Assembly: GCF_009498235.1 (NCBI RefSeq)
Contig: NZ_CP044205.1
Location: forward strand, 3,535,389 to 3,599,388
Length of the DNA stretch: 64,000 nucleotides
DNA from: Candidatus Methylospira mobilis
GTDB taxonomy: Bacteria > Pseudomonadota > Gammaproteobacteria > Methylococcales > Methylococcaceae
Direction of reading: 5' to 3'
Below are positions 1-26,214 of the stretch, one piece after another. Made by a program: the position numbers and the translations under genes. A model generated the notes under the pieces. It was given only the letters and a program-made list of their open reading frames with translations. It was not told where the DNA came from and ran no database searches. The number at the start of each line of letters is the position of its first letter. Within the stretch, counting starts at the first letter, position 1.

Positions 1-2
1 AT

Positions 3-2165
3 CTGGCATGGTGCCATCCGGTTTTATTCCAGCGCATTGCTGCCGCGAAGCAAAACAACCCCCGCCTGAAAGTCGTCAGTATCGATCCGCGCCGTACTGC
101 AAGCTGCGATATTGCCGACCTTCATCTGGCATTGAAACCCGGCACCGATGTCTTACTGTTCAATGGGTTGCTGCATGCTTTGCGTAAACACGGCCAGCTC
201 GATTTCGCTTATCTGGAACAACATGTTTCGGGGTTTGCCGCCGCGCTGGACGCAGCTAAAGTCACCGGCGCCTCTCTACCGGAAACAGCCTCGGCCTGCG
301 GCCTGAAAGAAGAAGATTTGTCCAGGTTTTATCATTGGTTCGGCCGTACCGAAAAAACGGTCACGGCCTGGTCCCAAGGCGTCAACCAATCGTCCAGCGG
401 CAGCGACAAGGTCAACGCCATCATCAATGTGCATCTGGCCACCGGACGCATCGGCAAACCCGGCATGGGGCCGTTCTCGCTGACCGGCCAACCCAACGCG
501 ATGGGCGGACGCGAGGTTGGAGGGCTCGCCAACCAATTGGCCGCACATATGGATTTCGATAGTCCCGGTCATTGGGATATAGTCAGCACGTTCTGGAAAG
601 CGCCCAATCTCGCCAGGCGGCCGGGATTTAAAGCGGTCGATCTATTCAACGCGGTGGCCGATGGGCGCATTAAGGCGTTATGGATCATCGCAACCAACCC
701 GGTCGTGAGTCTGCCCGATGTGAGGCATGTGCGCCGGGCGCTCGGCGCATGCCCATTCGTTGTCGTATCCGACTGCGAAGACAACACCGACCTCAAAGCG
801 TACGCCCATGTCCGTTTGCCTGCGCTGGGCTGGGGCGAAAAAGACGGCACCGTAACCAACTCCGAGCGCCGCATTTCGAGACAACGCTCTTTTCTGCCTG
901 CGCCTGGCGAAGCAAGGCCGGACTGGTGGGCGCTGACCCAGGTTGCTCATCGCATGGGTTTCGAGCAAGCCTTTGCTTATCAACATCCTCAGCAGATTTT
1001 CGTCGAATTTGCCCGGTTATCAGGCTACCGCAACGACGGGATGCGCTTGTTCAATCTGTCCGGTTTACAAAACCTCGACGTACCGGCTTACAACACGTTG
1101 CAGCCGATTCAATGGCCTATAAAACAGCCAAACGGTCGTGGCTGCCGGCGTTTGTTTCACGACGGACTTTTCAGTCACGACGACAGCAAAGCGCGCATGC
1201 TCGGGCTTACTCCGCAACCGGCAGGCAATCCGACCTGCGCCGCTTTTCCCTTTGTTTTGAATACGGGCCGAATTCGCGACCAGTGGCATACCATGACCAG
1301 GACCGCGCGCAGCCCTCGTCTTAATCAACACATGAGCGAACCTTATGCAGAACTTCACCCGGATGATGCCGAGCATGCAGGCTTGAAAGACGGGGAACTT
1401 GCACATTTGAAAAGCCGTTGGGGCGATGCTCTGGCGCGCGTCAGGGTCAGCGCCGATCAGCAACGTGGATCGGTATTCATGCCCATGCACTGGAGCGACC
1501 GGTTTGCCCGCCATGGACTGGTTAATGCACTGGTCAATCCGGTTGTGGACCCGGCTTCCGGAGAGCCGGAGTTCAAACATACGCCGGTATCCATCGAAGT
1601 CTACCGTCCCGCCTGGCACGGGTTCGCGATCGCCCGCGAAGCGCTCAGCATCGACGCAGCCGAGTATTGCGCGCAACAACGCGGCGACGGCTACTTTCTG
1701 TACGAACTGGCCGGAAATACTCTAATCGCGGATACTGCCGGGTGGGCAAAACCGGCGTTTTGCCGCACCGGGCATGAATACCTGGAGTACGCCGATATGA
1801 CTGCCGGCCGTTACCGCTGCGCAACACTGCATAATAATATACTGATGGCATGCTTGTTTATCAGTTGCGGACGCCAGTTACCGGACCGGGCCTGGCTCAT
1901 CGGCTTGTTAACAACCGAAACCACGCTGACATCTACGGCTCGCATGGCGGTATTGGCCGGAAAATCGCCTGTGGCGCGTGAAGACCCCGGCCGGATAGTC
2001 TGCGCCTGCTATAGTATCGGCGCCAATACCTTGAGCAAAGCCATCCGTGAATTCGGTTATTCCAGCACCGAACAATTGGGGCAAGCCCTAAATGCCGGCA
2101 CGGGCTGCGGCTCCTGTCTACCGGAATTGCGTACGCTGTTGGAGAACACGAGGAGGTCGCTATGA
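3..2165 (+). CDS. nasA: Assimilatory nitrate reductase catalytic subunit, 5' end outside window
   Basis: Cytoplasmic molybdenum (bis-MGD) enzyme that reduces nitrate to nitrite for nitrogen assimilation. About 720 residues are visible, and the frame is open to the window edge, so the gene begins upstream; the TTG at 132 is internal. The visible part covers most of the molybdopterin oxidoreductase domain (WCHP near the edge, a long ATNPVVSLPD stretch) and the dinucleotide-binding domain (FVLNTGRIRDQWHTMTRT). The last ~55 residues form a BFD-like [2Fe-2S] domain with CAC and CGSC cysteine pairs, as in Klebsiella-type NasA. The stop overlaps the start of the following nasT-like gene (ATGA), so the two are translated together. 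Confidence 0.93.
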   Translation: MAWCHPVLFQRIAAAKQNNPRLKVVSIDPRRTASCDIADLHLALKPGTDVLLFNGLLHALRKHGQLDFAYLEQHVSGFAAALDAAKVTGASLPETASACGLKEEDLSRFYHWFGRTEKTVTAWSQGVNQSSSGSDKVNAIINVHLATGRIGKPGMGPFSLTGQPNAMGGREVGGLANQLAAHMDFDSPGHWDIVSTFWKAPNLARRPGFKAVDLFNAVADGRIKALWIIATNPVVSLPDVRHVRRALGACPFVVVSDCEDNTDLKAYAHVRLPALGWGEKDGTVTNSERRISRQRSFLPAPGEARPDWWALTQVAHRMGFEQAFAYQHPQQIFVEFARLSGYRNDGMRLFNLSGLQNLDVPAYNTLQPIQWPIKQPNGRGCRRLFHDGLFSHDDSKARMLGLTPQPAGNPTCAAFPFVLNTGRIRDQWHTMTRTARSPRLNQHMSEPYAELHPDDAEHAGLKDGELAHLKSRWGDALARVRVSADQQRGSVFMPMHWSDRFARHGLVNALVNPVVDPASGEPEFKHTPVSIEVYRPAWHGFAIAREALSIDAAEYCAQQRGDGYFLYELAGNTLIADTAGWAKPAFCRTGHEYLEYADMTAGRYRCATLHNNILMACLFISCGRQLPDRAWLIGLLTTETTLTSTARMAVLAGKSPVAREDPGRIVCACYSIGANTLSKAIREFGYSSTEQLGQALNAGTGCGSCLPELRTLLENTRRSL

Positions 2166-2731
2166 GTTTGGGCGTGATGCTGGTAGACCGCAATGCCGAA
2201 CGCGGACAGCTATTGGAACAAGCGCTCGCCGATGCGGGTTACCGCATAATCCTGCGCACTAGCGACGACAGCAATCTGATTGCCGATGTCGCCAAACATC
2301 AACCCGACGTCATCGTCATCGATATGGAAGCGCCTGGCCGCGATACCCTGGAGCAAATGCGCGAAATTGGCCGCAATCATCCCAAACCCATCATACTATT
2401 TTCCGATCAGCGCGACTCGGATTACATTAGACAGGCGGTACAGGCGGGCGTCAGCGCCTATGTAGTAGACGGTTTGCAACGCGAACGGGTCATGCCCATC
2501 GTTGAAGTCGCCGTCGCCCGCTTCGCTGCATTCCAAACCCTCAAGCGCGAACTGGACGAAACCAAAATCCAGCTCGCCGACCGCAAGATCATCGAAAAGG
2601 CCAAAGGCATATTAATACAGAAAAAGCATATGAACGAAGATCAGGCGTATCAGTTTTTGCGCAATACCGCAATGAGCCACAACACTAAACTTGTAGAAGT
2701 CGCGCGCATGCTTATTTCATTGGAACGCTAG
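2162..2731 (+). CDS. nasT: NasT-like ANTAR response regulator (transcription antiterminator)
   Basis: RNA-binding antiterminator of 189 aa. Residues ~1-120 are a receiver-like domain (VIVIDMEAPG holds the usual acceptor Asp). Residues ~125-185 are an ANTAR domain, recognisable from the KAKGIL core, QAYQFLRN and the terminal ARMLISLE. In NasS/NasT systems, NasT is held by the nitrate sensor NasS and, when nitrate is present, binds a two-hairpin leader RNA to prevent termination. No nasS gene is in the window; it may lie upstream. The gene starts inside the nasA stop (ATGA overlap). A matching leader lies about 430 bases downstream. Confidence 0.9.
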   Translation: MSLGVMLVDRNAERGQLLEQALADAGYRIILRTSDDSNLIADVAKHQPDVIVIDMEAPGRDTLEQMREIGRNHPKPIILFSDQRDSDYIRQAVQAGVSAYVVDGLQRERVMPIVEVAVARFAAFQTLKRELDETKIQLADRKIIEKAKGILIQKKHMNEDQAYQFLRNTAMSHNTKLVEVARMLISLER

Positions 2732-3160
2732 TCCGTCGTCTTTGACCATGGCTCAACAGCATTCGCTGAATAGTTGTTCCGGATATAACTATGCTGCATT
2801 AACACAATAACACCGATCCTTCTTTTATTAATCGCCGCTGACCTGTCTTGCGGCCTGCATATGGCCCGCTTACCACCACCAAATATTCTCGAATGTTTTG
2901 ACGGGATAGAACAAATGATCGGCAATGCCACGCGAGATATCACCAAATCCTGTCCTTATTAGGACCCTGAAGGTTTCGCCTATTTTATCGTCAAACCGGT
3001 TATTGCATATTTGGTGCGTTCTGTCGTGTTTCGCCCTATTCTGGCGTCGGTTTTATTCATTAACCATATCTTTTAATACTTGCGGACTAATCCCATTTTA
3101 TTGGTTTTTATAAAAATAATATGGAATATCGTATACGGCATGATAAGTGCTTTATGAGTT
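2732..3160. other. Intergenic stretch without a convincing gene
   Basis: About 430 bases between nasT and the ANTAR-type leader. The short open frames here have no family resemblance or good ribosome binding site. The part just before the leader (3061-3122) is AT-rich and contains TATAAA- and TAATAT-like hexamers that could be a -10 element for the leader transcript, but no good -35 stands out. Confidence 0.5.
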
Positions 3161-3244
3161 TATACCTTGCAGCGATGGCAAGGTATATTTGGACATTGGC
3201 GTCCAGCTGCCCTGAGATCAGGTGGCTAGACGCCTTTTTTTCTC
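3161..3244 (+). promoter_or_regulatory. ANTAR-target two-hairpin leader with overlapping terminator
   Basis: Hairpin P1 has a perfect 10-bp stem (3161-3170 with 3178-3187) and loop AGCGATG. Two bases later P2 has a 5-bp stem (TGGAC 3190-3194, GTCCA 3201-3205) and a hexaloop ATTGGC. Both loops have A at position 1 and G at position 4, the signature bound by ANTAR proteins. A terminator stem GGCGTC (3198-3203) / GACGCC (3229-3234) followed by a T-run uses the 3' arm of P2, so P2 and the terminator exclude each other. Binding of NasT would favour read-through into the porin gene. Confidence 0.82.
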
Positions 3245-3297
3245 GAACCCGGGCAGCTTTCGGACCGAACGCAAACTCCGACTTTCGAGAAAAAACC

Positions 3298-4851
3298 ATG
3301 ACATATCTCTCCCAGCAGTTTTTAAAGACCGCCGCCGGTAATTATTGCCGGCTCGACAATAAACAAATACCCATCCGCTACCTCAAAAAATTCGCCGCTA
3401 CGGTAACCGCCTGTCTTTTTCTTGGTTACATACCAACCGCCTGCATCGCCGACGAGAACCTATTGCCATTTCCAACCGAATTCAATCTGGGTGATGAAAC
3501 CAGGCTCAAACTTGAAATGAATGAGCGAATACGTGGCGAATTTGCTGATTGGTTCGGAAATCAGCAGGCCAATGGGAAGGTGACTCCAAAAGAATATTCC
3601 TATAATTTTGTCGGCAACAAATTCCAGTTGGGTGCGCGATTGACCAACAGCTTCTCAGAAAGCTTTGCTCAACTGCAGGACACCCTGGTTGCCGCATTGC
3701 CCACTAACGGTTTAGGCGTCGGGGCGGCTTATTATCAAAACAGGCCACCCGAAACCACGCAAAACTCGGTATTCTTAAGACAGGGGTGGTCAAAATTAAA
3801 ATACAACGGCTTCTTCCTCTCCGGAGGGCGTCAACTCTACTCCGACGGCGCACAAGGAACTGCCAGGAACACAAGCCTCAAGTGGATACAGGATACGCGC
3901 ATCGCTCAACGTTTGATCGGTCCCTTCGACTACACTCATACGGGAAGAAGTTTCGACGGCGGCGCGCTGGGGTACAGTTCGGATAGCATCGAAGTGTCTG
4001 GCTTCGGCTTTGTTCCTACCTGGGGCGGCTTCGAAACCGACGGCATGCCTGAAATCAGCGGCGTCGATGTAGCGGGCGCCTCATTAAACCTGCGCGATAC
4101 CGGTTTCCTGCCGAATGTGCTGGCACGCCTTTCATACTATTATTACGGCGACAATAGAAACATAGCAGCAGTCGACAACAGTATTGCCGCTACACAAGCT
4201 AATGGTCTCCCTATCAATATTCACACCCTAGGAGGATCGATTGCACATGTCATCCGGATTGGACCCGGCAATTTAGACGGCATGCTTTATGCGTTCGGGC
4301 AAGTTGGAAAATGGCGAGCTTTGAATCAGGCCGCCTGGGCTTATGGCGCCGAATTCGGCTATCAATTCATGGATGTATGGGCCAGTCCCTGGCTGCGTGT
4401 AGGCGTCAATAGCGGATCTGGCGATTCGAATCCCCACGACAACACACATGGGACTTTTTTTCAAATGCTTCCAACGGCTTGGCTGTATGCTCAGTTCCCA
4501 TTTTACAACATGATGAATAATCAGGATGTTTTTGTTCAAGCCGTTCTAAAACCGCATCCTATGATCACCACTCGCATAGATTTCCACTCTCTCAGTGTAA
4601 ATGCCAGTAGCGACCTGGTCTATTCGGGTAGCGGTGCGACCAATAATACGCTATTCGGCTATTCAGGCATGAAAACCGGAGGATACCTCGACCTTGCCTA
4701 TCTGGCTCACGCGTCTGTAAATTTTAAGCCTCTGGATTTTTTACAGTTTAATGCCTTTTACGCACACGCGTTCGGGCAAAGCATCCTAAGCGCAAACTAC
4801 GCCGGCAATCAGGGCAACTATGCATTTTTGGAGGCCGTTGTTTCATTTTAA
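3298..4851 (+). CDS. Outer-membrane alginate-export-family porin, likely nitrate-regulated
   Basis: 517-residue protein. After a long N region comes a hydrophobic segment (ATVTACLFLGYIPTACIA) that reads as a signal peptide, then a Gly/Asn/aromatic-rich beta-barrel ending in Phe, the usual outer-membrane C-terminus. The barrel resembles the alginate_exp family (RLKLEMNERIRGEF, FLRQGWSKLKYNG, GGRQLYSDGAQGT). An upstream in-frame start at 3121 is rejected because it would translate through the leader hairpins; ATG 3298 follows the terminator. Control by NasT suggests a channel for nitrate or nitrite, but substrate is inference. Confidence 0.75.
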   Translation: MTYLSQQFLKTAAGNYCRLDNKQIPIRYLKKFAATVTACLFLGYIPTACIADENLLPFPTEFNLGDETRLKLEMNERIRGEFADWFGNQQANGKVTPKEYSYNFVGNKFQLGARLTNSFSESFAQLQDTLVAALPTNGLGVGAAYYQNRPPETTQNSVFLRQGWSKLKYNGFFLSGGRQLYSDGAQGTARNTSLKWIQDTRIAQRLIGPFDYTHTGRSFDGGALGYSSDSIEVSGFGFVPTWGGFETDGMPEISGVDVAGASLNLRDTGFLPNVLARLSYYYYGDNRNIAAVDNSIAATQANGLPINIHTLGGSIAHVIRIGPGNLDGMLYAFGQVGKWRALNQAAWAYGAEFGYQFMDVWASPWLRVGVNSGSGDSNPHDNTHGTFFQMLPTAWLYAQFPFYNMMNNQDVFVQAVLKPHPMITTRIDFHSLSVNASSDLVYSGSGATNNTLFGYSGMKTGGYLDLAYLAHASVNFKPLDFLQFNAFYAHAFGQSILSANYAGNQGNYAFLEAVVSF

Positions 4852-6016: not shown

Positions 6017-7264
6017 TTAAATGAACGATGGGATCAGAGGCGCGTCGATCTGTACGATCTGACGGGTGCCCGATGCATCGAAGAAGAACAGCAAGCCGGC
6101 GAAACGGCTGTCCGGATCGTAGATGATGTCGGCCAGACGATATACTTCCCATGCTGCGTCGGACGCCTGTACTTCTACAGTGCGGCTTTCGCCCGGAGCG
6201 ATCGGTGAATTGTCGCTTACGGTCAGGCCGTCTTCCGCCAGCAGGTCTTCAGGATAGCCGGTGGTGTCTCTGTAGACGTCGGAATCCAGGAAGCGTACCG
6301 ATGCGGTGTAGAACTCGCCCAGACGGATCGGGCTGTTGCCGCTGTTGGTGATGGTCAGCTTCATGCGCATTGCACGGCCAGGTACGCGGTAGGTTGCATC
6401 TTCAACCTTGACGGATACCGTCGGCTTCGGCAGATCGATCGGTTTGATACCGCGCATCGTACCAGCCTGCAACGGGATGGTGATCGGGTATTTGCCGTTC
6501 GCGCTGCTCATCGCTACGACGACGATCAGTATGGTCGCCGCGGCGAATGCTGCGCCTACTTTACGATCCAGCGGAGTGACGATTTCGTCTGCACGCCCTG
6601 CGTCAACCAGCAGAAGACGCGGCAGGAATACCGGACGACGTACCCAGTACAGGATCCATGCCAGGCCAAATACCGCCCAGAAGATGTGCCAGAATGCAAT
6701 GTTGCTTTCCTGGTAAACTTCGAGGTCTACGGTCTGACCGGTCAGCGTGGTTACAGGATTCTTGAAGTCGGAGAAGGAACCGCCTTCGATGGAGATCCAT
6801 TTACCCGGCCCGATGATCGGACCGCCGCCCTGGACGCTCATCATGGTGTGGACGTGCCAGTCGCCAGGACGACGCGCTCTCAGTACGACGCGGAATTCGT
6901 AGGTCTTGCCAATTTCAAGACGTACGGAACGCGGCACCAGCTGACCGCCGATGTACGACTCCTTGCGGATGAAGACCGGGCCGGGGATACCGATGTTCAG
7001 GAACGCGACATCGGGTTCGGCTACGGTTTCAGGCCAGCCTTCGAATACGTGGAATTTACCAGTGATTTCCACGTCTTCGTTGACCGCCACTTTTTCTTTT
7101 GACCATTTCAGGTCAAACCAGTGGATGGTGCGCATACGCATGAACGCTGCCTGGGATTTTTCTCCGTGGGCAGAGGCGCTCGGCGCGTACAGGCTGGTGG
7201 CTGCAACCGCCAGCAACAGGCCCAGCAGGGACCAGTTGGCGATCCGGGTTCTGATTTGTTTCAT
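6017..7264 (-). CDS. pmoB: Particulate methane monooxygenase subunit B
   Basis: 415-residue periplasmic copper subunit of pMMO, which oxidises methane to methanol at the membrane. A signal peptide ends at Ala32, so mature protein begins with His33, followed by HGEKSQAAF. His33, His137 and His139 (DWHVHTMM) are the dicopper ligands, and His48 and His72 of the bis-His site are present; all have the Methylococcus capsulatus numbering. Two transmembrane helices (FWHIFWAVFGLAWILYWV and AAFAAATILIVVVAMSS) separate two cupredoxin-like domains. Last gene of pmoCAB, about 150 bases after pmoA. Confidence 0.98.
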   Translation of the reverse strand: MKQIRTRIANWSLLGLLLAVAATSLYAPSASAHGEKSQAAFMRMRTIHWFDLKWSKEKVAVNEDVEITGKFHVFEGWPETVAEPDVAFLNIGIPGPVFIRKESYIGGQLVPRSVRLEIGKTYEFRVVLRARRPGDWHVHTMMSVQGGGPIIGPGKWISIEGGSFSDFKNPVTTLTGQTVDLEVYQESNIAFWHIFWAVFGLAWILYWVRRPVFLPRLLLVDAGRADEIVTPLDRKVGAAFAAATILIVVVAMSSANGKYPITIPLQAGTMRGIKPIDLPKPTVSVKVEDATYRVPGRAMRMKLTITNSGNSPIRLGEFYTASVRFLDSDVYRDTTGYPEDLLAEDGLTVSDNSPIAPGESRTVEVQASDAAWEVYRLADIIYDPDSRFAGLLFFFDASGTRQIVQIDAPLIPSFI

Positions 7265-7415
7265 ATGTTCCTCCTCTTTCGAGAATGTTCGTGTTTCGGC
7301 TGCTACGCGCTTGCGCGCTTCGCGCCGACGCTAATGTTTTGTCTTTCCCGACTTGAGAGCGTTCAGGTCGCCCTTGTGCTCTCGCATCTCATGTCTTCAA
7401 GTCTTCGTCAAACGA

Positions 7416-8159
7416 CTAGGTCGACTTGATGAATCTGACGGTTGCAAACCAGCGACCTACAAAGTGCCAGATGAAGTAGATCAGGATGGACATGAACGCT
7501 GAGAAGAACGCTGATACCGGCGCTACGTCTTTACCGAAAGTACGCAGGGTGCCTTTTTCCACCATGCGGATGTACTCGGGTGTGCCGGTACGTACGTAGT
7601 TGTATCCGATCAGGTCGGCTACGGACAGCAGCATGCCGTTGTATTCAACAGGTACGTGGTACGGTGCGATGATCGGCCAGTTGCCCGGATAGAAGATCAA
7701 GCCCCAGCCCATTGCCCCTACGACTGCGGTGAACAGGTAGCTGCCGCTCAGCAACAGTACGGAGTCGAGCAGGATGGCGCCCGGTACGATCTGCGACGGG
7801 AAGCACATGGTGATCGGGAAGTAGGTCCAACCCCAGAAGTTGAAGTAGCGGTTGACCCATTCGCCGAACAGCAGCGCCAGTACGCATACGGTGGCGCCCC
7901 ATGGCAGACGCAGGCGCTCCCACATCCACGATTGTACCGCCGCAGGGAAAGTGACCAGTACGATCGGTACTACGGTTACCCATAGACGGCGATCTTTCCA
8001 GTCGATCCAGAAGTCCCAGTCACCCATGGTCAACATGGCGTGAATGTGGTAGGAACCGCAAATTACAAAGAAGAATATGAACAGGCCCAGGTAGTCGACT
8101 GTACGTGAGACTGACACTGCTTCGGCATGTGACCGAACCGCAGTTTGTAGTGTGCTCAT
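7416..8159 (-). CDS. pmoA: Particulate methane monooxygenase subunit A
   Basis: 247 residues, exactly the usual PmoA length, an integral membrane subunit with about seven helices. Diagnostic stretches are HAMLTMGDWDFW, GEWVNRYFNFWGWTYFP, YPGNWPIIAPYHVP and RMVEKGTLRTFGKDVAPV. The last two are typical of type I methanotrophs and separate it from AmoA. Middle gene of pmoCAB. The phylogenetic marker could place the organism to genus; reading suggests Methylococcales only. Confidence 0.98.
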   Translation of the reverse strand: MSTLQTAVRSHAEAVSVSRTVDYLGLFIFFFVICGSYHIHAMLTMGDWDFWIDWKDRRLWVTVVPIVLVTFPAAVQSWMWERLRLPWGATVCVLALLFGEWVNRYFNFWGWTYFPITMCFPSQIVPGAILLDSVLLLSGSYLFTAVVGAMGWGLIFYPGNWPIIAPYHVPVEYNGMLLSVADLIGYNYVRTGTPEYIRMVEKGTLRTFGKDVAPVSAFFSAFMSILIYFIWHFVGRWFATVRFIKST

Positions 8160-8198
8160 GAGTTACCTCCAATTTTACACGTTTGGTTGTGTAGTGCG

Positions 8199-8234
8199 GG
8201 ACCGCGCCCCTCGCTCGCGCTTGTCGCGCGGTCC
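8199..8234 (-). repeat. Stem-loop in the pmoC-pmoA spacer
   Basis: A perfect 9-bp inverted repeat (GGACCGCGC 8199-8207 with GCGCGGTCC 8226-8234) lies in the 161-base gap between pmoC and pmoA, with an 18-base loop and no T-run. It is a candidate RNA-processing or partial termination point setting subunit ratios, as proposed for related amo/pmo operons. Confidence 0.55.
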
Positions 8235-8320
8235 GCCCTACGCTCTTGGTTTTCGAGGGTTTGCCATCGGCGCTTTTCGCTGTTTTTCAGTTCAGCCATC
8301 CCCGCTTCCGGCCCGCCTTC

Positions 8321-9100
8321 TTATTTTGAAATCAAACCCTGATCAACTGCTTCGCACAGCTGTTTGCCGATCAGGTTGTTGAAGCTGTTGAATATCTGGG
8401 TCAGTACGCCCATTATCGACAGCGCCATCCAGCCGAAGAATACGAAGCCGTAGTGCAGCGGCGCTACGAACAACTCTTCCATGAACCAGAAGGTGTGACC
8501 CCATTCGTTCAGACCTACGTTCGGCAGGATCATGAACGGACCGACTACGGTGACCAGGTACGGCAGGGACAGGTCCGTCGCAAAGTACGGCAGACGGGTC
8601 TTGGCGTACAGGAACGATGCAAAGCCGGTGATGATGTAGATCGGGTAGCTCAGGTAGAACTCGATGATGTGCGACGGGGTGAAGTCGGTGTCGCGCACGA
8701 TCGTCTGATGCCAGGTGCCGTCCTGCTCGGTGAAGTAGCTGGCGCCCCAGTAGATGGCCCATGCGTACGCAAATACCCATACCACGTGGGTCATGTTGCG
8801 GCGCAGTTCTTCGCGCGGGGTGATCGCAGCCAGGTTGCGATCGCGGGTTTTCCAGATGTAGCCCCACAGCAGCGATGCGGTGCTGATTTCAGCCACGATT
8901 TCGATGTACAGGAAGTTCATCCAGTAGGTTTCGAATTCCGGTGCAAATGAGTCCAGACCGGCTGACCAGCCATAGACGCCTTCGTACCAGCGTACCCACA
9001 TGTAAAACACGGTGTAGATTGTAAATGCAAATGCCAGCCACTTGATATCAAGAATCGGCTTGTCGTTTGCAGCTACGCCATCAATTGTCGTTGCAGCCAT
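8321..9100 (-). CDS. pmoC: Particulate methane monooxygenase subunit C
   Basis: Membrane subunit of 259 residues, first gene of the operon. Start chosen at 9100 (MAATTIDG) because of the AGAGG ribosome site 10 bases before it and the normal PmoC length; the frame is open further upstream but that part looks noncoding. The helix with DTDFTPSHIIEFYLSYP carries the Asp/His copper ligands, and NEWGHTFWFMEELFVAPLH the second conserved membrane site. Order C-A-B is that of pMMO operons. Confidence 0.97.
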   Translation of the reverse strand: MAATTIDGVAANDKPILDIKWLAFAFTIYTVFYMWVRWYEGVYGWSAGLDSFAPEFETYWMNFLYIEIVAEISTASLLWGYIWKTRDRNLAAITPREELRRNMTHVVWVFAYAWAIYWGASYFTEQDGTWHQTIVRDTDFTPSHIIEFYLSYPIYIITGFASFLYAKTRLPYFATDLSLPYLVTVVGPFMILPNVGLNEWGHTFWFMEELFVAPLHYGFVFFGWMALSIMGVLTQIFNSFNNLIGKQLCEAVDQGLISK

Positions 9101-9217
9101 TTCAAATACCTCTTTGTTGAGTTTATTCCCGGGATAGCTCCCGGGCCACGTTCTTGGGTTACCTGGATGCGACGGTTTTTGCGTCTTGCTGCGCTTTTCA
9201 CCGACAGAGCCAAGTGC

Positions 9218-9251
9218 GCGACACTTTGTCACACCCCCCTCTGACTGTCAA
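9218..9251 (-). promoter_or_regulatory. Candidate pmoC promoter
   Basis: A perfect -35 hexamer TTGACA reads on the minus strand at 9251-9246, about 146 bases before the pmoC start. At 17 bases there is only a weak -10 (CAAAGT), preceded by GTGTGA. Strong pmo promoters are usually sigma-70 type. The rest of the 9101-9378 spacer shows no gene. Confidence 0.35.
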
Positions 9252-24166: not shown

Positions 24167-24253
24167 GCCTCGGTGGTGAAACTGGTAGACACAAGGGACT
24201 TAAAATCCCTCGCCCTTACCGGCGTGCCGGTTCGATTCCGGCCCGAGGCACCA
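24167..24253 (+). tRNA. tRNA-Leu (anticodon UAA), CCA encoded
   Basis: Acceptor stem GCCTCGG pairs with CCGAGGC. D arm GTGAAACTGGTAGAC, anticodon loop CTTAAAA (UAA) closed by GGGA/TCCC, long class II variable arm, T arm with GGTTCGATTCC, and encoded CCA at 24251-24253. Its 3' end is the likely attachment site of the adjacent integrase-bearing element. Confidence 0.97.
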
Positions 24254-26062: not shown

Positions 26063-26214
26063 TGCATGCCTGAACGCATCTTTTGACTGTTCGTCTATAC
26101 ACCACACCGTAACTGTTGTAGATTTTCCATCGCGCCTAGTCCGGCCAGACGAAAACGGGATTCCTTCACCCGCTGGCGCATCCAGTCTTGAAGGTGCTTC
26201 CTGAAGGTAAAGCG

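Follow-up and report, generated by a model that had tools for sequence, protein, structure and literature searches.

A probable ANTAR-type antitermination leader before an outer-membrane porin gene in the methanotroph Candidatus Methylospira mobilis

The RNA targets of ANTAR proteins consist of two hairpins, P1 and P2, whose hexaloops carry A at position 1 (A1) and G at position 4 (G4), with P2 excluding a terminator (PMC3369931, PMC8934654). In Paracoccus denitrificans, NasT binds the leader RNA of nasA once nitrate frees it from NasS (PMC3795266). The nas leader hairpins HI and HII have been studied by mutation, NtrC control of nasTS has been described, and it is already known that NasT and the Ntr system act jointly on nas genes (PMC5424462). 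For EutV, the closing base pairs of P1 proved important, and the ANTAR targets named in the accessible text of the same paper are enzymes, transporters, and regulators of nitrogen metabolism (PMC3369931).

We analyzed a stretch of 64,000 nucleotides from the genome of Candidatus Methylospira mobilis (hereafter, the window), in which hairpins of this kind lie between a nasT gene and a porin gene. As at the nasA and nas leaders of P. denitrificans and Azotobacter vinelandii, the hairpins resemble those of nitrate-gene leaders and nasT is adjacent; here, however, the target is an outer-membrane porin, and a NasS-like gene heads the operon in which nasT is the last gene. With the targets of EutV (eut of Enterococcus faecalis), NasR (nasF), and AmiR (amiE), the locus shares P1, P2, A1 and G4, and the overlap of P2 with the terminator, but its P1 loop has 7 nt, and its linker of 1 to 2 nt compares with 5 to 12 nt in E. 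faecalis eut (PMC3369931). A porin is not among the target types named in the accessible parts of PMC3369931 and PMC8934654, and no word beginning with "porin" occurs in the main texts of PMC3369931, PMC5424462, and PMC6759348. Among the papers listed by searches of openly available main texts, judged by title and the beginning of the abstract, none deals with an ANTAR- or NasT-controlled porin. In Bradyrhizobium, an "outer membrane protein," blr1311, is upregulated 2.3-fold in a nasT mutant (PMC6759348, in part), which is the opposite direction to that proposed for the porin here. The type of switch is known; the porin as its target appears to be new.

The nas operon and the structure of the porin leader

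The genome (G000) is a single contig of 4,703,534 bases. Its nas operon begins before the start of the window and, in the record L002, has the gene order NasS-like, NrtA-like, nrtB, nrtC, nirB, nasA, nasT. The first two genes both encode NMT1_2 proteins: the NrtA-like protein (L002:8993-10282) has a Tat-signal match, and the NasS-like protein (L002:7717-8955), named from gene order and its missing signal, has none. The whole nasA gene spans L002:14879-17554; its product matches the NCBIfam NasC/NasA models below their cut-offs. The start of nasT overlaps the stop of nasA, and one nas cluster holds both the NasS-like gene and nasT, as expected of a NasS-NasT system. The nasT-like neighbor named in the original prediction is indeed a NasT-type ANTAR protein, and a genome-wide search found no other ANTAR match. 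The gap between nasT and the porin gene contains the leader, and the genome has a second ANTAR leader (L002:7575-7670) at the head of the nas operon, before the NasS-like gene.

Table 1. Features of the window (R1 and R2 are covariance models described in the text)
Feature	Position	Strand	Details and support
nasA, assimilatory nitrate reductase catalytic subunit, 3' part	1-2165	+	Pfam Molybdopterin, Molydop_binding, Fer2_BFD
nasT, receiver and ANTAR protein	2162-2731	+	Pfam ANTAR 73.1 bits, Response_reg 51.1 bits
Sigma-54-like box CGGCATGATAAGTGC	3136-3150	+	GG 3137-3138, N10, GC 3149-3150; 3/6 further consensus bases
Hairpin P1, 10 bp	3161-3187	+	Folds; R1 match 3164-3207
Hairpin P2 (putative antiterminator), 6 bp, hexaloop AUUGGC	3189-3206	+	Fold; R1 and R2 matches
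Predicted intrinsic terminator GGCGUC...GACGCC + U7	3198-3241	+	Fold -23.1 kcal/mol; shared-arm test
Alternative post-terminator pairing 3205-3212/3251-3258 and 3213-3217/3241-3245	3205-3258	+	Minimum-energy fold
Alginate_exp-type outer-membrane porin, 517 aa	3298-4851	+	Pfam PF13372 54.4 bits (cut-off 25.2)
pmoB, pmoA, and a further frame	6017-9232	-	Pfam Monooxygenase_B, AMO
tRNA	24167-24250		
int-alpA RNA	26129-26194		Rfam 42.1 bits

The host is a methanotroph, as marked by pmoB and pmoA; with the further frame, the stretch looks as expected of a pmoCAB operon, and it lies shortly behind the porin gene and a glycosyltransferase gene. Farther along the window, the int-alpA RNA near a tRNA points to a probable integrated element.

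P1 pairs 3161-3170 with 3178-3187 around the seven-base loop AGCGAUG (3171-3177), and P2 pairs 3189-3194 with 3201-3206 around a standard hexaloop (3195-3200); both loops have A1 and G4. The two hairpins with A-x-x-G loops that the original prediction described are therefore present, except that the P1 loop is not the standard hexaloop. Their spacing of two bases holds if P2 is counted as 5 bp; between the full stems there is a single unpaired base (3188). The distance from the A1 of P1 to that of P2 is 24 nt, the commonest spacing among related leaders (25 of 60 aligned matches, see below). P1 lacks the stem base beside the loop, which is unique among the 60 aligned matches except for the poorly aligned L081 and L082, and some other leaders of the aligned set have G at P1 loop position 1. 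Of the features given for ANTAR targets in PMC3369931 and PMC8934654 (two hairpins, hexaloops with A1 and G4, a P2 that excludes the terminator), only a P1 loop of six bases is missing here.

The terminator pairs 3198-3203 with 3229-3234 (6 bp) below an upper stem and is followed by U7 at 3235-3241. Its 5' arm consists of the last three bases of the P2 loop and half of the P2 3' arm, which bears out the predicted sharing of that arm with a terminator followed by a T-run; because of this shared use, P2 and the terminator are mutually exclusive. At 4.1 sd above shuffled sequences in stability, the fold of 3150-3260 was matched by none of 200 shuffles. The minimum-energy fold of 3150-3260 and of 3160-3262 is not the terminator but a read-through fold that pairs across the U-run; the pairing within 3205-3258 is possible only in RNA that extends past the terminator. 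The porin leaders of G000, G001, G015, and G032 (the window, L010, L011, and L147) differ at other bases but share the motif GCTGCCC on the upstream side of the terminator and GGGCAGC on its downstream side.

The sigma-54 consensus used for scoring comprises GG-N10-GC and six further bases. The box before the porin leader suggests a transcription start near 3162, at the foot of P1, and no sigma-70-like promoter was found in a sequence scan of 2700-3400. A GG-N10-GC box with at least three of the six further bases lies within 80 nt upstream of 44 of 56 related leaders (mean 3.4, maximum 9 in 200 shuffles), including 9 of 13 porin leaders. The genome encodes RpoN and two proteins above the cut-off of the NtrC model. 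An NtrC-site search returned one 10/12 match before the nas leader and, at 8/12 or better, none before the porin and 216 in the whole window; NtrC control as judged from this search is unconvincing.

Recognition and conservation of the leader

Two A-x-x-G hairpins 15 to 30 nt apart occurred in 14 of 5,000 dinucleotide shuffles of 2732-3297, the whole motif with the shared terminator occurred in 1 of 5,000, and in the window the whole motif was found in 2 of 450 tiles, both covering the site; because the criteria were set after the site was seen, these numbers are a guide only. No Rfam family reached its gathering score over the leader; only the tRNA and int-alpA did so, elsewhere in the window.

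The original prediction had proposed a covariance search and an alignment of porin leaders from other methanotrophs as checks, and both kinds of check come out in its favor. Five leaders from other genomes went into the model R1, with both G000 leaders held out; four of the five precede porin homologues (found by an A-x-x-G scan), and one precedes a NasS-like gene. Its best match in the window is the porin leader (25.3 bits, E = 0.00047; next match, 15.8 bits). In the whole genome, R1 scored the nas leader at 34.8 bits, another site at 26.5 bits, the porin leader at 25.3 bits (E = 0.034), and two sites lower. Because the porin leader ranks third genome-wide, the score is insufficient by itself, and its place and conservation carry the case. 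The site at 26.5 bits, G000:3432876-3432916 on the minus strand, is followed by no U-run within 75 nt and by no ATG frame of 120 aa, and is probably spurious. A second model, R2, trained on a wider set of leaders that included the window's porin leader, scored that leader at 31.8 bits, one of two matches in G000 at E ≤ 0.01.

We searched 101 genomes (G000 and relatives) with R1 and found a match at E ≤ 0.05 in 34 of them. An ANTAR gene is present in all 27 genomes with a best R1 E ≤ 0.01 (G000 included) versus 69 of the 101 overall (hypergeometric P = 4e-6, with genomes taken as independent despite their kinship). Three of the seven genomes with a best E between 0.01 and 0.05 are without an ANTAR gene (G033, G034, and G035). 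From 68 R1 matches, we discarded 7 by eye because P2 had no terminator or no nitrate gene followed, left out 6 more (all E > 0.02), and added the porin match of G002, which gave 56 leaders. The genes behind them encode MFS proteins (16), NasS-like proteins (14), homologues of the porin (13), NirB (7), a second porin (4), and NrtA-like proteins (2). The label "MFS" is based on one Pfam scan (L120) and likeness among the 16 translations, and NasS-like and NrtA-like proteins, which are homologous, were separated only by best tblastn match.

The alignment of these leaders (A3) comprises 60 matches from 56 loci in 49 distinct rows, with L081 and L082 poorly aligned in P1. Among the distinct rows, 90.6% of cells pair, a value from an alignment that was fitted to the model and is hence biased toward it. 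Two-sided changes occupy 83 cells; shuffles gave 24.9 (sd 4.0), and slid partners no more than 37 (49 rows). They affect 8 of the 12 pairs; as many pairs were affected in 7 of 500 shuffles and with one of the slid controls (+2). The relatives, porin leaders among them, thus keep both hairpins by compensatory change. In 55 of the 56 leaders, the P2 loop or 3' arm takes part in a terminator stem of 5 bp or longer; the exception by the strict rule is the NasS leader of G000, whose stem AAGGCGTCC/GGAGGCCTT was found by eye and contains a mismatch. Together, the R1 match, the compensatory changes, and the shared arm argue for an ANTAR-type antitermination leader as originally predicted, and we are highly confident that such a leader acts on the porin gene.

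In a class-wide sample of 369 genomes, 73 matches were listed and 28 leaders were inspected. Of these 28, 24 precede nrtA/nasS-, MFS-, nasA-, or nirB-like genes (the label of one, L172, is only a 25% match), and 4 have no U-run. Neither porin type lies behind any of the 28 inspected leaders of the 73 matches listed.

Identity and distribution of the porin

The predicted alginate-export-type porin is upheld by a Pfam score above the curated cut-off and by a structural model that most resembles AlgE. The AlphaFold2 model (15 sequences; pLDDT 76.2, pTM 0.74) is strand-rich and of beta-barrel type, and Foldseek ranks AlgE entries first (8q2o, E = 2.5e-17, TM by query 0.56), ahead of other outer-membrane channels. 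AlgE/Occ-type channels thus have the nearest predicted fold, but identity is 10 to 13% in the 50 matches listed, and here nitrate assimilation genes surround the porin. A PDB sequence search with the porin alignment returned nothing at E ≤ 1, and no relative of the porin turned up when viral contigs were scanned.

Homologues of the porin occur in 27 of the 101 genomes at E ≤ 1e-50 (G000 included) and in 32 at E ≤ 0.001, of which five weak matches (E > 1e-6) were excluded from the counts. In 14 of the 27 genomes (G000 included), the porin gene has a leader of its own, 13 found by the model and that of G032 by eye. Eight of the 13 R1-found porin leaders are members of the R1 training set or near copies of them (G001, G005, G008, G015, G017, G023, G027, and G031), and five are independent finds (G000, G002, G006, G012, and G016). 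In G001 and G015, the leader-bearing porin gene is divergent from MFS-nirB genes and does not follow nasT. The G032 leader (L147) has two hairpins, a sigma-54-like box, and a stem without a U-run, which suggests a decayed terminator or another mechanism.

In four of the 27 genomes (G003, G019, G025, and G037; L144-L146 and L148), the porin gene directly follows nasT without a leader of its own, an arrangement in which the leader was gained or lost between relatives; in one of them, G025 (L148), the nasT match before the porin covers just residues 117-188, the C-terminal part, and nasT may be broken. One genome (G061) has the porin directly behind nrtC. Eight have neither a leader nor a nasT or nrtC neighbor in the stretches of about 1.5 kb on each side of the porin; in G069 and G092, a 25% NMT1-like match lies behind it.

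Among 19 loci from named genomes, nas, nrt, MFS, or nirB genes lie beside the porin in nine (L033-L037, L039, L042, L043, and L047), and 10 have no nas or nrt neighbors in the stretches examined, some of which are short. L033, L034, L035, and L047 apparently duplicate contigs of G015, G001, G061, and G017, and therefore the counts from named genomes and from the 27 genomes overlap. In five named loci (L035, L037, L039, L042, and L043), nrtC directly precedes the porin gene; three of them are in records titled Deltaproteobacteria, and L037, L039, L042, and L043 carry this gene order outside the order Methylococcales. In L037, a model match of 32 bits, a candidate leader, lies at the start of a stretch that extends across nrt genes as far as the porin. 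In Methylococcus capsulatus (L047), nasT, leader, and porin follow one another in that order. Class-wide, homologues at E ≤ 1e-20 were found in 2 of 369 genomes (G000 included), and therefore the porin as a target has so far been seen in this order.

A second porin of 422 to 430 aa lies behind a nasT-adjacent leader in G014, G021, G026, and G030 (L125, L129, L136, and L078). It is labeled Alginate_exp from one Pfam scan (L125, 37.2 bits) and four like translations, and it has no significant BLASTP similarity to the window's porin. The strongest case for an outer-membrane channel being needed at this position is that two dissimilar porins occupy it.

Proposed control of the porin and alternative readings

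We consider it very likely that NasT controls the porin gene through an antitermination leader at 3161-3241, and the porin itself is very probably a member of the NasT regulon. RNA polymerase starting from the sigma-54-type promoter, or reading on from nasT, would make P1 and P2. When nitrate is absent, NasS would hold NasT, P2 would yield to the terminator, and transcription would stop near 3241. When nitrate is present, NasT would be freed, bind the A-x-x-G loops, and hold P2, so that the terminator would be blocked. Because only one terminator-like site was found in 2700-3400, NasT would gate both the RNA that starts at the sigma-54-like box and the RNA that comes from nasT, and read-through RNA could add the hairpin 3205-3217/3241-3258. 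The porin would be expressed alongside the nas operon, which begins with a leader of the same type, and would most likely supply nitrate or nitrite to the periplasm for NrtA. Nitrate is the likely signal; we call the leader nitrate-responsive by analogy, because NasS and NasT work in this way in Paracoccus (PMC3795266, in part) and because of the nas/nrt neighborhood. That nitrate or nitrite is also the main substrate of the porin is a reading we favor with less assurance.

The leader could be a true ANTAR leader on a porin with another substrate, for example an exported polysaccharide or anions in general, that is co-regulated for envelope reasons. The predicted fold is nearest to AlgE, an exporter, and the porin stands apart from nas and nrt genes in 8 of 27 genomes and in 10 of the 19 named loci (again within the stretches examined, some of them short). 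However, several records have the porin immediately after nrtC, and a second, dissimilar porin can occupy its slot; both observations point to uptake together with the Nrt and MFS transporters, and we regard another substrate as possible though rather unlikely.

A less probable reading is that the leader is a relic, in which the 7-nt loop of P1 weakened or broke the recruitment of NasT, the terminator is constitutive, and the porin is expressed otherwise. P1 is without the loop-side stem base that nearly all aligned leaders have, and both hexaloops are needed for antitermination by EutV in vivo (PMC8934654, in part). The stem of a relic would be expected to decay, whereas P1 still has 10 paired bases along with A1, G4, and the 24-nt spacing; we think it improbable that the leader has lost its function. 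We give similarly little credence to the idea that the short terminated RNA (about 3162-3241) is functional in its own right, as a P1-bearing decoy of NasT comparable to the EutX/rli55 RNA. The sigma-54-like box would place the 5' end at P1, P1 would be intact after termination, and sequestration of EutV by EutX has been mentioned (PMC8934654, in part), but the position before the porin is explained without a decoy. Finally, the terminator could simply close the nas operon behind nasT, with P1 and P2 as chance hairpins and the porin on an unregulated downstream promoter. This reading fits the terminator's place behind the last nas gene as the only terminator-like site found in 2700-3400, but is very improbable given the rarity of the whole motif in shuffles, the failure to find a sigma-70-like promoter in the same interval, and leaders before the porin in 13 other genomes (in G032 without the U-run), two of which (G001 and G015) do not have it behind nasT.

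Returning to a NasT-controlled leader on the porin gene, a bolder version can be sketched, which as a whole we consider speculative and unlikely. The porin would be a dedicated outer-membrane nitrate/nitrite channel of methanotrophs under double gating, with sigma-54 starting transcription under nitrogen limitation and NasT letting it pass when nitrate is present. Two porin lineages would have been recruited independently, the odd P1 loop would set a higher threshold for NasT so that the porin is made after the nas operon, and the 80-nt RNA would act as a sponge for NasT.

The usual view is that nitrate enters across the outer membrane via general porins. A porin under a nitrate antitermination switch, in many genomes and in two dissimilar types, would mean that entry through the outer membrane can be a regulated step. 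We suggest that the cell may admit nitrate through its outer wall only when importing it pays, and cultured methanotrophs such as M. capsulatus offer a ready test case.
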